Source of the DNA: Arcobacter roscoffensis
GTDB lineage: Bacteria; Campylobacterota; Campylobacteria; Campylobacterales; Arcobacteraceae
Direction: 5' to 3'
Length of the DNA stretch: 64,000 bases
Assembly (NCBI RefSeq): GCF_024267655.1
Contig: NZ_CP100595.1
Span: forward strand, 930,001 to 994,000
Translations under genes and position numbers: made by a program
Shown here: one piece after another, positions 51,918 through 57,269 of the stretch
Layout of the letters: each line of letters begins with the position of its first letter
Numbering within the stretch: position 1 is the first letter of the stretch
The notes under the pieces: model-generated
The model's database searches: none
What the model was told of the DNA's origin: nothing
Seen by the model: the letters and a program-made list of their open reading frames with translations, nothing else

Positions 51918-53768
51918 TTATTCCCCGTTTTCTCTAAAATAATTATGTATTAAGTTTGCATCTTTTTCATTTATAACTTCTTTTAGTTCTTCAACTGATG
52001 CATTTTTAATCTTTTCAAACTCCCCAAAGTATAAAAGAAGTTTTTTAACTTTTGCCTCACCTATACCTTTTATTTGAAGTAGTGAAATTTGTTTATCTTC
52101 TTTTCTTTTTTGTTTTTTATGAAAGTTGATTACAAATCTATGGGCTTCATCCCTTTGTCTTTGAACAAATTGAAGTCTTTGGTCACTTGTTTTTAGTTTT
52201 ATATTTCTTATTGTTCCATCACTATCTTTATAGTGAACTATATCTTTTGCTGCACCTTTTGCTCTGTGGGCTTTTGCGTCAACCTTCTCTTTTGCAATAG
52301 CAATTATATCAAGGTTAACACCAACTGATTGCACTATATCAAAAGCAAGTTTTAGTAGAGTTTCACCTCCATCAATAACCCATAAATCAGGCGCAGGGTT
52401 CTTCTCAAAACTTTCAACTCTTCTCATTAGCATTTCTCTCATTTGAGAGTATTCATCTTTTGATTCAAGATTATAGTGTCTAAAGGCTTTTCTATCAAAA
52501 GAGTTTAACTCTTCATTCCACACAACCATGGCTCCAACAGTAGCTTGTCCCATCATATGAGAGTTATCAAAAGACTCAACTCTGTAAGGGAGTGTTTGTA
52601 GCTTAAATAGATTTTTTAACTCATCATAAATAGTAGTTTGGTTTCTTGATGATTCAATTCTAAGTAGTTCATCACAGTTATTTAAAGCTATTTCAAGTAG
52701 TGTCTTTTTCTTTCCTCTTTGAGGATTAATGATACTAATATTTCTTTCAAATCTATTTTTTAAAAACTCTTCTATCTCTTCTTTATCTTCAACTTCTTGA
52801 GCTGTTAAAATCTCTTTTGGTAAAAGTGGTATTTCATTGTCATAATAATTTACAATTGCTCTTTTATAGGCTTCATTTAAATCTATATTTGAATTATCTT
52901 CTAAAAAGTCAAGCTTTACAAAATCATGAGAAGATGAGGCTAGTTTTCCATCTCTTATGAACATTCTTACTATTACTGCTTTTTTTGAGCTTGCTTTTAT
53001 AGCAAATAGGTCTAAGTCTTCGTTTGTTGCTAAATCCATTCCTGATTTAATTTGAGACTTTTCTATGGTTTTTATTCTATCTCTAAGCTTCATAGCCTCT
53101 TCAAATCTAAACTCTTCTGAGTATTGCATCATTTTTTCTTCTAGTTTTGAAATAAGCTTTGCTTTATTATATATAAAATCTAAGGCTTCTTCAACAACTT
53201 TTCCATAATCAGCAGTTGAGATTTTACCTTCACAAGGAGCATGACACTTTTTGATTTGATGGAAAAGACAAGCTTCTTTTCCTTTTACACATGATTTTTT
53301 TTGTACAAGTGGAACTATTTCATAAATAGAGTCAAGCATATCTTTTGCACCTGTAGAGTAGGGACCAAAGTATTTGATATTTTTACCCTTATAAACTCTT
53401 CTTGTTATTTCAAGTCTTGGAAAAAGTTCATTATAATCAACCATAATATATGGATAGGTTTTGTCATCTCGTAGAAGAATATTGTATTTAGGTTTTAACT
53501 GTTTTATTAAAGAGTTTTCCAAAATTAAAGCATCATGCTCATTTGGAACAACAATCCATTCTAATGATACAACTTCTGTAATCATCTTATAAATTCTAGG
53601 ACCTAGTCTATCTGATGGAAGAAGTTTTGGAGTAAATTTAAAGTATGATTTAACTCTATTTTTAAGTACTTTCGCTTTTCCTATATAAAGTAAATGACCA
53701 TCTTTATCAAAGTATTGATATACCCCAGCATCGTTTGGGAGTTGTTTAAGTTTCTCTTCTAATTGCAT
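51918..53768 (-). CDS. uvrC: Excinuclease ABC subunit C
   Basis: 616 residues. GIY-YIG nuclease at the N-terminus (AGVYQYFDKDGHLLYIGKAKVLKNR), a Cys-rich stretch CVKGKEACLFHQIKKCHAPC, a UVR motif (MMQYSEEFRFEEAMKLRDRI), the UvrC endonuclease domain (ESFDNSHMMGQATVGAMVV, DLWVIDGGETLLKLA) and a final helix-hairpin-helix (IKGIGEAKVKKLLLYFG). Makes the two incisions of nucleotide excision repair. Head of the run uvrC-alr-Sel1. Confidence 0.96.
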   Translation of the reverse strand: MQLEEKLKQLPNDAGVYQYFDKDGHLLYIGKAKVLKNRVKSYFKFTPKLLPSDRLGPRIYKMITEVVSLEWIVVPNEHDALILENSLIKQLKPKYNILLRDDKTYPYIMVDYNELFPRLEITRRVYKGKNIKYFGPYSTGAKDMLDSIYEIVPLVQKKSCVKGKEACLFHQIKKCHAPCEGKISTADYGKVVEEALDFIYNKAKLISKLEEKMMQYSEEFRFEEAMKLRDRIKTIEKSQIKSGMDLATNEDLDLFAIKASSKKAVIVRMFIRDGKLASSSHDFVKLDFLEDNSNIDLNEAYKRAIVNYYDNEIPLLPKEILTAQEVEDKEEIEEFLKNRFERNISIINPQRGKKKTLLEIALNNCDELLRIESSRNQTTIYDELKNLFKLQTLPYRVESFDNSHMMGQATVGAMVVWNEELNSFDRKAFRHYNLESKDEYSQMREMLMRRVESFEKNPAPDLWVIDGGETLLKLAFDIVQSVGVNLDIIAIAKEKVDAKAHRAKGAAKDIVHYKDSDGTIRNIKLKTSDQRLQFVQRQRDEAHRFVINFHKKQKRKEDKQISLLQIKGIGEAKVKKLLLYFGEFEKIKNASVEELKEVINEKDANLIHNYFRENGE

Positions 53769-53804: not shown

Positions 53805-53829
53805 ATAAAGGTTTAAACAAAACCTTTAT
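53805..53829 (-). terminator. Hairpin after the SIR2-TPR gene
   Basis: ATAAAGGTTT / AAACCTTTAT with a five-base loop, starting at the SIR2 stop codon, 36 bases before the uvrC start. AT-rich but without a long U-tail. Confidence 0.5.
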
Positions 53830-55466
53830 TTATATTTACTAATTATTTTTTGAAAGTTTTCATCATCAAGTAAATGAGCCCAGTCTTCATCTTCTAAAAC
53901 AAAATCCTTTGTGATTTCATCATCTTTTAATGATTTATCTAAAATATCTAAGGCTTTATCTATTTCATCTTTTACAGAATATAGACATGCTAAATTATAT
54001 TTTCCTCCACCTAATTCTATTGCTTTTTCATATTTTTCAAAGGCTTGACTAAATAAATTTTTATCGTTGTTTATTTTTGCTAAGTCAATTAATACAACTC
54101 CCCAATTATTAAAGATAGATTCATCTTTAGGATTTAAAATTGAAGCAGATTTATATTTTTCTAAAGCCTTTTTATATAATTTTTCATTATTGTCTATTCT
54201 TGCTAAATCAGTTAATGTGACTCCCCAGTTATAATAGATATGACTTTCTTTTGAATTTAAAATGGAAGCGCGTTCATACTTTTTTAAAGCTTCATTAAAT
54301 AAGTCTTTATCATTTGTTTTTTTTGCTAAATTAGCTAACATATTTCCCCAGTTTTCTTGAAGTTCAAAACTTCTAGGATATGCAATTTCTGCTTCTTTAT
54401 AAATATCAAGTTTTTTATTTATGTCTTTTTCTTTTTGTGCTTTTAATTCATAATCCCACCAACTAGGCAGTATTGATTTAGCATTTTCTTTAAATTCTTC
54501 TGAAGTAGATTCTTTTACTTCTTCCATAAATTTAGATAATTGCTGTTTATAGATTTTTACTTTTTTGTAAGCATTTTTTACAATAAGAGATTCTGAATCA
54601 TCATCTTTAGACAAGGATTCTATTGATTCAAAACTGTAGACATTTTTTTGCAAAGAAACCATCAGCTCATCAAAGCCTTCTATTTTTACTATTTTATCAT
54701 TTCCTTTTAAAACTTCTTTTATATTTTGAGGAATATTTTCAGTATTTTTTAAACACCAGTAAATTTCCTTTCTTGTAGAGTTTTTTAGAAAATTCATAAT
54801 ACTTTTATCATTTCCTCCATAACCTATGATTATTAAAGGTGAATTAGCAAGTATAGGTTTTAGTGCCTGTTCTAGTGGTTGTTCAAGTTCACAGGTATTA
54901 TCTGGACTATTATATGGATCCAAAAGAATATCTCTATGGGCTTTTATAATTGTAGGTCTAGTAGAATTTAACTGTACAAAGTTAGCAAGAGATTCATGTC
55001 CACATACTAAAGGTCTTTTTGATGTAAATAAGAAAAGAGCATCTTCAATCAATGAGTCAAAGTTTGTTGTTATTACAAAGTTATGGTTTGTATTTTCTAA
55101 AATTTGAGAAAGAATAGTGTATCCAATACTTGGTTGTTTATTTTCCATTATCTTTTGAAGTGTTTCATAGCCATTTTGAGGGTTATATTCAAATCTTTTT
55201 CTAAAAATCTCTGTATATTTAGAAGCAGGGTTTTTTTCATCAATTTTATTTTCTTTTTTCCATGATTCAAACTCTTCTTTCAAATCTTCTTTTATTTCTT
55301 CAATCCACTCTTTCGCAAGTTTTGATGCAGATGGTATTTCACTTTGTACAGAAGCACCTGCACCTAAAAGAAAAACAAACCTAGTATCGCTTTTATTTTT
55401 ATGATTATCTTTTAGTATTCTTACTAGGTTGTTTTGATTGATTTTAATTATATTTTCTTGACCCAT
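53826..55466 (-). CDS. SIR2-like NADase/deacetylase domain with TPR repeats
   Basis: 546 residues from ATG 55466, five bases after GAGGAAAC; the frame extends to 55508 without a site. SIR2-like core: VFLLGAGASVQSEIPSA at 32-48, ITTNFDSLIEDAL at 132-144, a His at 177 (IIKAHRDI) where sirtuins have KLHG, and IIIGYGGNDKSI at 212-223. From about 350, three long TPR-like units of ~39 residues repeat YNWG-x(3)-DLA-x(8)-Y-x(3)-ALEKYKSASIL. SIR2-TPR architecture is common among phage-defence NADases, but also occurs outside defence, and no partner gene is present here. Confidence 0.75.
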   Translation of the reverse strand: MGQENIIKINQNNLVRILKDNHKNKSDTRFVFLLGAGASVQSEIPSASKLAKEWIEEIKEDLKEEFESWKKENKIDEKNPASKYTEIFRKRFEYNPQNGYETLQKIMENKQPSIGYTILSQILENTNHNFVITTNFDSLIEDALFLFTSKRPLVCGHESLANFVQLNSTRPTIIKAHRDILLDPYNSPDNTCELEQPLEQALKPILANSPLIIIGYGGNDKSIMNFLKNSTRKEIYWCLKNTENIPQNIKEVLKGNDKIVKIEGFDELMVSLQKNVYSFESIESLSKDDDSESLIVKNAYKKVKIYKQQLSKFMEEVKESTSEEFKENAKSILPSWWDYELKAQKEKDINKKLDIYKEAEIAYPRSFELQENWGNMLANLAKKTNDKDLFNEALKKYERASILNSKESHIYYNWGVTLTDLARIDNNEKLYKKALEKYKSASILNPKDESIFNNWGVVLIDLAKINNDKNLFSQAFEKYEKAIELGGGKYNLACLYSVKDEIDKALDILDKSLKDDEITKDFVLEDEDWAHLLDDENFQKIISKYK

Positions 55467-55542
55467 TGAAGTTTCCTCTTTAAATTGTAAGGATATTATA
55501 TCTGACAATGGGTAAATAGTATTTTAATATAAAATTTAATTC

Positions 55543-56445
55543 TTAGTGATAATTTATATAATAAGGTTGTTCTTCAATTATTTGACTTCCAACATTTTCA
55601 AAACCAAGTATTTTTTTTGGTGTCATTAAAGGTTTTATATCATTGTTATAAAAGATTTTAAATCCACCTATAGCTTTATTTGTTTGTTCTCTTGCATACA
55701 AGGCATTGTAGATTTTAACTTTTACTCCTGCTTGTCCATGTCCATCTATATTGTAGATTAGTTTTATGTTTTCATAGTTTTTTACTTCATTTTTTTGTCT
55801 TAACATTCTTTTATGAAACATATGAACTATTATTTTCTTAGGAGTTTTAATATCATTTTCTTTTAGGTATGAACCTACATACTCTTGTAGTTCATTTAAC
55901 TCTTTTGCTTTTACATGACCTACATATTTTCCTGGTGGGTATCTTCTATGTGTTGGGATTTTGAACTCTGGGTCAATTGCTAAGTGTACATTTTCATATT
56001 TTAGATACTTAAGTAGTGGTTCTACAGCTTCTTTGGGAGTTTTTACTGAAAGTTGTACATCTAAAATCACTGCAAAGTTTTCTTTTTGGGCTCTTTTTAT
56101 ATATTTTAGTACAGTTTTTTCACTCATTCCTAAAAGGTAGTCATTTCTTCTTCCTGGGTCTTTTGTTGCAAGAGAATGAATAATATGAAAAGCCATTTTT
56201 ACTTCTAAGTCCTTATTAAAAAGTTCTAAGTCTTTTTTATAGTATTCTTGCTTTTCTCTCATTTTAATAACTAATTCATTAATATTATTTTCTCCTAAAA
56301 TTCCTAATGATTTACTATTTGGTCTACCATAGAAACCTACTAAAACTTCATTTTTATAGGTTTTTGAATATTCTATAGTATTTGCAGTTATAGTACTTGT
56401 AAGGAATAGGGCTATAATGCCTATATAAACTAGTGTTTTTCTCAT
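55543..56445 (-). CDS. Secreted TIM-barrel-like protein of unknown function
   Basis: 300 residues with signal peptide MRKTLVYIGIIALFLTSTITA. VLVGFYGRPNSKSLGILGENNI, AVILDVQLSVKTPKEAVEPLLKYL, NVHLAIDPEFKIPTH and KIIVHMFHKRMLRQKN recall a family of secreted bacterial barrel proteins of unknown function, with acidic residues at strand ends (D in LDVQLS, D-x-E in IDPEF) like a hydrolase active site. A glycosidase-like activity is a guess. Single gene, divergent from the SRAP gene. Confidence 0.65.
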   Translation of the reverse strand: MRKTLVYIGIIALFLTSTITANTIEYSKTYKNEVLVGFYGRPNSKSLGILGENNINELVIKMREKQEYYKKDLELFNKDLEVKMAFHIIHSLATKDPGRRNDYLLGMSEKTVLKYIKRAQKENFAVILDVQLSVKTPKEAVEPLLKYLKYENVHLAIDPEFKIPTHRRYPPGKYVGHVKAKELNELQEYVGSYLKENDIKTPKKIIVHMFHKRMLRQKNEVKNYENIKLIYNIDGHGQAGVKVKIYNALYAREQTNKAIGGFKIFYNNDIKPLMTPKKILGFENVGSQIIEEQPYYINYH

Positions 56446-56573
56446 TTTTACCTCAAAAAAAATTATTTAATAATTTTAGTATATTCTATTAACTTGAAAT
56501 AAAATTTAAAACCTTTCCAATAAGGCTAATTACAGTTAAATACTATTAATATTTCATAAAAAAAGGAAAAGTT

Positions 56574-57269
56574 TTGCCAGGTAGATTAGCTATTTTTGAT
56601 GATAAGTCTTTTAAAGAAGACTCAAAACATTTGATTAAAAATGATATGGTAGGTATCTTACAAAAAAGATACAATATTCCGCCAACTACTCCAATACCTG
56701 CACTTTTAAATAATGGCAACTATCTATATACTCATTTTGGTTTTTTACCTTCGTGGGCTACTTCAAAATCTTCTATGAATATAAATGCAAGAAGTGAGAG
56801 TATTTATGAAAAAAAGACTTTTAGAGAAGCTTTTAGATTCAAAAGATGTATTATTCCAATAAATGGCTTTTATGAGTGGCAAGTTGAAGATAAAGAAAAA
56901 ACACCTTTTTTTGTAAAAGATATGAAAGAGGATTATTTAGCTGTTGCTGGTATTTGGGACGAGTATTTTGAAGAGCAGTTAAATATGAATATTGTAACTC
57001 TTGCTTTGATAACTTGTGATGCAAATGATAAGTTGGGAGAGATTCATCACAGAATGCCAGTAGTTTTAGAAAAAAAAGATTTTTCAACTTGGCTTAAAAG
57101 TGATGATTTAAAAGAAGTAAACTCTTTATTTAAAATCTATGATTCTTCAAAACTAGAACTTTATGAAGTATCAAGTGATGTAAATAAAGTTCTTTTTGAT
57201 AAGCCTTCGTGTATTGAAAAGGTAGTTAAAAAACAGCCTGAACCAAGAGGTCAGTTATCACTTTTTTAA
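56574..57269 (+). CDS. SRAP/HMCES (YedK-like) protein without the catalytic Cys2
   Basis: 231 residues from TTG 56574 behind AAAAGGAAAAG. The fold is unmistakable: PSW-x-NINARSES at 59-76, IIPINGFYEW at 93-102 (E101), ITCDAND and EIHHRMPVVL (H159). But residue 2 is Pro (MPGRLAIF) where the family has Met-Cys-Gly-Arg, whose Cys2 becomes the N-terminal nucleophile that crosslinks to abasic sites in single-stranded DNA. Either the crosslinking role is lost or the family variant here works differently. Overlaps the convergent kinase gene by 12 bases. Confidence 0.85.
   Translation: MPGRLAIFDDKSFKEDSKHLIKNDMVGILQKRYNIPPTTPIPALLNNGNYLYTHFGFLPSWATSKSSMNINARSESIYEKKTFREAFRFKRCIIPINGFYEWQVEDKEKTPFFVKDMKEDYLAVAGIWDEYFEEQLNMNIVTLALITCDANDKLGEIHHRMPVVLEKKDFSTWLKSDDLKEVNSLFKIYDSSKLELYEVSSDVNKVLFDKPSCIEKVVKKQPEPRGQLSLF

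Follow-up and report, generated by a model that had tools for sequence, protein, structure and literature searches.

What can an SRAP protein do at an abasic (AP) site when proline stands in the place of its catalytic cysteine? The question is raised by a single gene in the window, by which we mean the whole stretch of 64,000 nucleotides of Arcobacter roscoffensis DNA that was analysed. The SRAP cysteine has been described as "absolutely conserved" and always the second residue (available part of PMC3765255). The Cys2 proteins read here as controls agree with this description, as does the first-pass annotation's word "universal". The open-licence literature yielded no paper on an Arcobacter SRAP or on one with Pro2. 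The gene and the features needed for the argument are as follows.

51918-53768, minus strand: uvrC, divergent and upstream of the SRAP gene; in many relatives the two genes stand directly head-to-head
56563-56567, plus strand: Shine-Dalgarno-like AAGGA, six bases 5' of the TTG start, read directly
56574-57269, plus strand: Pro2 SRAP gene, 231 amino acids, TTG start and TAA stop; open reading frame with a PF02586 match
56577-56579, plus strand: Pro2 codon CCA, occupying the place of the catalytic Cys2
56784-56792, plus strand: N71-A72-R73 motif, equivalent to YedK N75-A76-R77; N and R in 27 of 27 Pro2 proteins
56874-56876, plus strand: Glu101, equivalent to YedK Glu105 (general acid/base); E in 27 of 27 Pro2 proteins
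57045-57047, plus strand: His158, equivalent to YedK His160; H in 27 of 27 Pro2 proteins
57249-57266, plus strand: C-terminal GQLSLF, a predicted motif of the sliding-clamp-binding type, 3' of a low-confidence linker

The window protein matches PF02586 at 186 bits over profile positions 1-214 of 214 (cut-off 27.1). SRAP is the only family that a Pfam scan of the protein matched, and Fapy_DNA_glyco (PF01149) was not found in that scan. The 5' end of the gene reads TTG-CCA-GGT-AGA. Upstream of the start, eight in-frame codons lead to a stop, and none of them is ATG, GTG or TTG. A Cys2 paralogue in the same genome was considered and rejected, as a search of this 3.15-Mb, single-contig genome found one SRAP copy. 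The full-length frame with CCA at its second codon thus bears out the earlier report of Pro in place of Cys2.

The same replacement is found throughout the family to which the window belongs. SRAP is present in 30 of 104 genomes of this family, and a start codon, a Pro codon and Gly-Arg follow one another in all 30, including one genome (G096) whose SRAP gene is split over two contigs. Neither of the two things that could have undone the observation, close homologues beginning MCGR or a misread start, was encountered in these genomes. The 27 distinct full-length Pro2 proteins start with ATG (21), TTG (4) or GTG (2), and their Pro2 codons are CCT (15), CCA (9) and CCC (3). The DNA 5' of SRAP varies freely while the start position is fixed, so both the start and residue 2 are constrained. 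For the 341 computable pairs, the median dN/dS is 0.20 and the highest value 0.50; these are simple Nei-Gojobori counts, and many pairs are near saturation. The Pro2 SRAP gene evolves under purifying selection. Its absence from 74 of the 104 family genomes indicates that the function is dispensable. In one genome (G083, locus L030), Pro2 is kept and an in-frame deletion takes out the HHRMP segment, including the catalytic His; this copy is probably decaying.

Outside the family, residue 2 is Cys in every readable SRAP of the order. A search of 398 genomes of the order gave SRAP matches in nine genomes outside the family, and a phylum-wide search added no SRAP genome to those of the order search. 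All five intact SRAPs among these matches (L041 and L042-L045) start MCGR, and remnants in G262 and G141 retain Cys-Gly-Arg. For the matches in G151 and G317, no N-terminus was found. The remnants, which belong to another family of the order (L049 in G141; L046/L051 in G262), are Cys2 SRAPs, one apparently shortened to VCGRVDIHDRMP and the other disrupted. In the Cys2 SRAP L041, NAK replaces NAR, with Lys for the DNA-contact Arg.

In viral contigs, a pattern that leaves residue 2 free matched 99 stretches (52+47), of which 97 have Cys. The two exceptions were rejected as non-Cys SRAPs: L158 is an out-of-frame coincidence, and the true MCGR start of L159 lies upstream. True viral SRAPs therefore have Cys2 in 98 of 98 cases. 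An ATG-Cys pattern matched 97 stretches in the viral contigs and an ATG-Pro pattern matched none, and a search of them for close relatives found none. Further tblastn matches, all below 60% identity, came from plasmids (1946 records) and phages (60 records). Among the five that were read, L053, L055, L056 and L057 have Cys2, and L054, which was left out of the trees, has Cys after an ATA codon.

The comparisons below use 27 Pro2 and 55 Cys2 proteins. Left out of these sets are the window itself (L001/L002), a protein identical to that of L028 (L029), the HHRMP deletion (L030), the gene split over contigs (L031/L160), duplicates of other loci's proteins or cut copies (L032-L040) and fragments (L046-L052). 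Of the 97 viral loci, 45 were kept, and the remainder were duplicates or failed the motif filter.

Trees were built without residues 1 and 2. Two viral rows (L090 and L116), in which a false start upstream gave S and A as residue 2, were trimmed for the larger tree so as to begin at MCGR. In this 82-row tree (27 Pro2, 55 Cys2), the Pro2 proteins form one side of a branch with an SH-aLRT support of 100, and the residue-2 state changes once. A careful search on 47 rows supports the Pro2 clade at 100/99. Alignment had been suggested by the first-pass annotation as the way to learn whether Pro2 is fixed in a clade; here Pro2 proves to be so fixed. In the 47-row tree, the stem branch of this clade is long, at 0.93 changes per column, and its sister is a Cys2 protein from another family of the order (L045; support 100/93). 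L045 has F55, where nearly all other Cys2 proteins have Trp, but lacks both Pro2 and the tail at the C-terminus. From these sequences, W55F likely came first, and Cys2 to Pro2 and the tail came later, both on the one stem branch. Three candidate accompanying changes were rejected. The W-to-F change at residue 55 does not qualify as compensating for Pro2, because the Cys2 sister already has F. As for a relocated cysteine that could substitute for Cys2, C92 is shared with Cys2 proteins. C148 is present in 96% of the Pro2 set but is Ile in the basal protein L028; since L028 also has Pro2, the two residues are not coupled.

The active site around residue 2 is otherwise preserved. With the YedK reference sequence taken from the E. 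coli K-12 record, ten residues are identical in 27 of 27 Pro2 proteins: R4, P37 (YedK P40), N71 (N75), R73 (R77), E75 (E79), E101 (E105), W102 (W106), T147 (T149), H158 (H160) and R160 (R162). This agrees with the earlier claim that Cys2 was lost while the rest of the site was kept. The NAR motif, Glu101 and the HHRMP motif are intact, but the His159 named in that claim needs correcting, as YedK His160 aligns with H158, the first of the two His residues. An AF2 model of the window protein (alignment of 35 sequences) has a mean pLDDT of 94.6 and a pTM of 0.90. It matches HMCES (6oov) with Z 26.6, YedK crosslinked to AP-DNA (6nua) with Z 25.8, and the YedK C2A Schiff-base complex (8d2m) with Z 25.9 and an rmsd of 2.3 over 210 residues. 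In these structural matches, residue 2 of the model falls on residue 2 of both the YedK and the HMCES chain. The strong PDB matches are all SRAP, and the Fpg/Nei fold is not among the matches listed. On this model, the window protein has the SRAP fold. It is SRAP by descent, without the defining Cys2, and represents a Cys2-less sublineage rather than a typical member.

What such a site could do is suggested by work on YedK. Glu105, with His160, opens the AP sugar; the first bond comes from the alpha-amine of residue 2, and the thiol only closes the thiazolidine afterwards (available text of PMC9436759). According to the same text, YedK C2A forms no stable crosslink. It forms a Schiff base that can be trapped by borohydride (rate constant 1.7) and has a DNA AP lyase activity of 0.05, both values standing in a legend that gives no units; E105Q lowers both trapping and lyase activity of this mutant. 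An N-terminal Pro is the corresponding nucleophile in Fpg/Nei, where it forms a Schiff base at AP sites that leads to beta-elimination (available text of PMC11323726). In that account, Nei2 is a beta-lyase at AP sites in single-stranded DNA (ssDNA), and the reverse swap, Nei2 P2C, has no lyase activity.

Since C2A YedK makes a Schiff base with its N-terminal amine and thereby turns into an AP lyase, we infer that in this lineage iminium chemistry of the Fpg/Nei kind at Pro2 has replaced the suicide thiazolidine crosslink. A stable thiazolidine crosslink should be excluded at Pro2 on chemical grounds. Methionine aminopeptidase accepts both Cys and Pro at position 2, and removal of Met1 would make Pro the N-terminus. 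His158 and Glu101 would open the sugar at the AP site, and Pro2, as a secondary amine, would attack C1' to form an iminium. With no Cys thiol, the thiazolidine could not close and the adduct would not be locked. It could then be resolved by Glu101-assisted beta-elimination, which is the preferred outcome and would amount to AP lyase activity on ssDNA, or by hydrolysis. In either case, the enzyme would turn over, and tethering to the sliding clamp through its QLSLF tail would keep it close to where DNA is replicated or repaired.

The tail sets the Pro2 proteins apart. A Q-x-x-[LF]-F motif lies in the last 12 residues of 25 of the 27 distinct Pro2 proteins versus 1 of the 55 Cys2 proteins, and shuffling the last 20 residues gives the motif in 0.14 of 27 on average. 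It is mostly GQLSLF at the extreme end, after a linker that varies in length and sequence; the exceptions, L003 and L006, end SLFDL. The window protein ends RGQLSLF, and its last model blocks have pLDDT values of 70 and 57. In the source genome, a QL-[ST-like]-LF-stop pattern has 12 DNA matches (10 for a reversed-pattern control), and among these 12 the match in the SRAP gene is the sole one to terminate an open frame of at least 60 codons. The lone Cys2 protein with a tail is viral (L068, 237-839) and ends NQMSLFS. QL[S/D]LF or QxxLF is a published sliding-clamp binding consensus, and B. subtilis PolC carries a C-terminal QLSLF, a peptide of which binds its clamp with a KD of 3.8 uM (available text of PMC12309361). 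Judged from the motif, the Pro2 SRAP is predicted to bind the sliding clamp. The association of a clamp-type tail with Pro2 proteins is new here; the first-pass annotation makes no mention of the tail.

The gene neighbourhood includes DNA repair. Of 37 relative loci, 24 have a divergent uvrC upstream of SRAP, that of the basal Pro2 protein among them; this count is neither a rate nor a number of independent cases, as many loci have only ~1.5 kb of flank and some are same-genome duplicates. Two inserted genes keep uvrC and SRAP apart in the window. One (53826-55508, minus strand) encodes a SIR2-like and TPR defence-type protein that matches PF13289 and the PADLOC Aga_SIR2 and PDC-S65 models. 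The other (55543-56445, minus strand) encodes a 300-residue protein with a signal-like N-terminus, as judged by eye; it had no match in Pfam, PADLOC or NCBIfam, yet 6 of the 37 relative loci carry it immediately 5' of SRAP. A link to the SOS response was rejected, as no LexA domain was found above the cut-off in 104 family genomes, with one sub-threshold match in G042.

Other AP lyases bear on the function as well. No Fpg/Nei domain was found in 104 family genomes or in 298 order genomes, with positive controls detected. Replacement of Fpg/Nei by the Pro2 SRAP was considered on this basis and is uninformative, since Fpg/Nei is absent from the whole order, with or without SRAP, and its absence is no argument for replacement. 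The source genome encodes two HhH-GPD proteins, one of them Nth-like by eye. Other AP lyases therefore exist in this genome, which counts against a change of chemistry in the SRAP protein.

Taking the evidence together, we put it at a little above even that the Pro2 SRAP is an AP-site enzyme with swapped chemistry, in which a Pro2 iminium is resolved by lysis or hydrolysis, the enzyme turns over and the clamp holds it. The first-pass annotation had offered non-covalent sensing and N-terminal Pro amine catalysis side by side; argued from analogues, Pro-amine catalysis is the better supported of the two. Against amine chemistry at Pro2, proline may fit badly where Asn71 normally holds a primary amine, and the dispensability of SRAP within the family also counts on this side.

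The boldest specific form is a clamp-tethered AP lyase that turns over through a Pro iminium and would have converged on Fpg/Nei in an unrelated fold, by the change of Cys2 to Pro and the gain of the tail. On the analogy with YedK C2A and Fpg/Nei, its chances fall somewhat short of even. Cutting of ssDNA near a fork by a lyase would be dangerous and would run counter to the protection that HMCES is proposed to give, and this counts against it. The tail, being of the clamp type, would also suit HMCES-like fork protection, and YedK C2A is trapped about 34-fold faster than it cleaves (1.7 vs 0.05; available text of PMC9436759), so an imine could dwell. Pro2 might thus form an iminium with the AP site in a pocket that disfavours beta-elimination, reversibly capping AP sites in ssDNA and leaving by hydrolysis, with no permanent crosslink. 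We regard this as unlikely, as an iminium should, on chemical reasoning, favour elimination, and the known AP-site enzymes with an N-terminal Pro (Fpg/Nei) proceed to beta- or beta/delta-elimination (available text of PMC11323726).

Pro2 might instead block covalent chemistry altogether, leaving a protein that does no more than bind AP sites or ssDNA junctions. The side chain that serves as the family's defining nucleophile is indeed lost, and R4, R73 and R160, which contact DNA, are retained. Yet Glu101 and His158, whose YedK equivalents are acid/base catalysts (available text of PMC9436759), are invariant in 27 of 27 proteins where a pure binder could lose them, and the residue fixed is, of all possible ones, a known amine nucleophile; such a binder is improbable. 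Still more doubtful is a protein that has lost its AP-site role, takes another aldehyde or a peptide substrate in its pocket and is targeted to the clamp by its tail: the long stem branch leaves room for such a shift, but the DNA-binding and catalytic residues are all kept and uvrC lies in the neighbourhood. A wrong start codon, a sequencing error or a decaying gene can be set aside for the clade, since Pro2 recurs in 30 of 30 genomes with three start codons, three Pro codons, diverging upstream DNA and a low median dN/dS, despite the uncommon TTG start and the HHRMP deletion in the relative G083.

Catalysis by the Pro2 amine remains the best-supported reading, and the clade has a wider use. 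As it keeps all other known catalytic residues with Pro2, it is a natural experiment on the purpose of the thiol, and Pro2 predicts a definite switch in which suicide crosslinking gives way to reversible or lyase chemistry. Human HMCES reaches PCNA through a PIP box, and the predicted clamp binding suggests that in bacteria, too, an SRAP enzyme may be linked to the replication clamp.

Compared with known systems, the window protein is homologous to YedK and HMCES over its full length and shares their fold, the Asn-Glu-His site and the DNA-contact Arg residues. It differs from both in having Pro2 for Cys2, and from YedK in its clamp-type C-terminal tail, which YedK lacks. YedK C2A (8d2m) is the laboratory counterpart of a Cys2-less SRAP and an AP lyase through its N-terminal Schiff base. 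Pro2, in contrast, is a secondary amine that would give an iminium rather than a neutral imine, and it was fixed by evolution, not engineered. Fpg/Nei enzymes, such as M. smegmatis Nei2, have an N-terminal Pro that removal of Met exposes, as it would expose Pro2 of the window protein, and use it as the nucleophile on AP sites; they are unrelated to the window protein in sequence, and their PF01149 profile is not matched. With B. subtilis PolC, a clamp client, the window protein shares an identical pentapeptide at the extreme C-terminus, from which its binding to the clamp is predicted.
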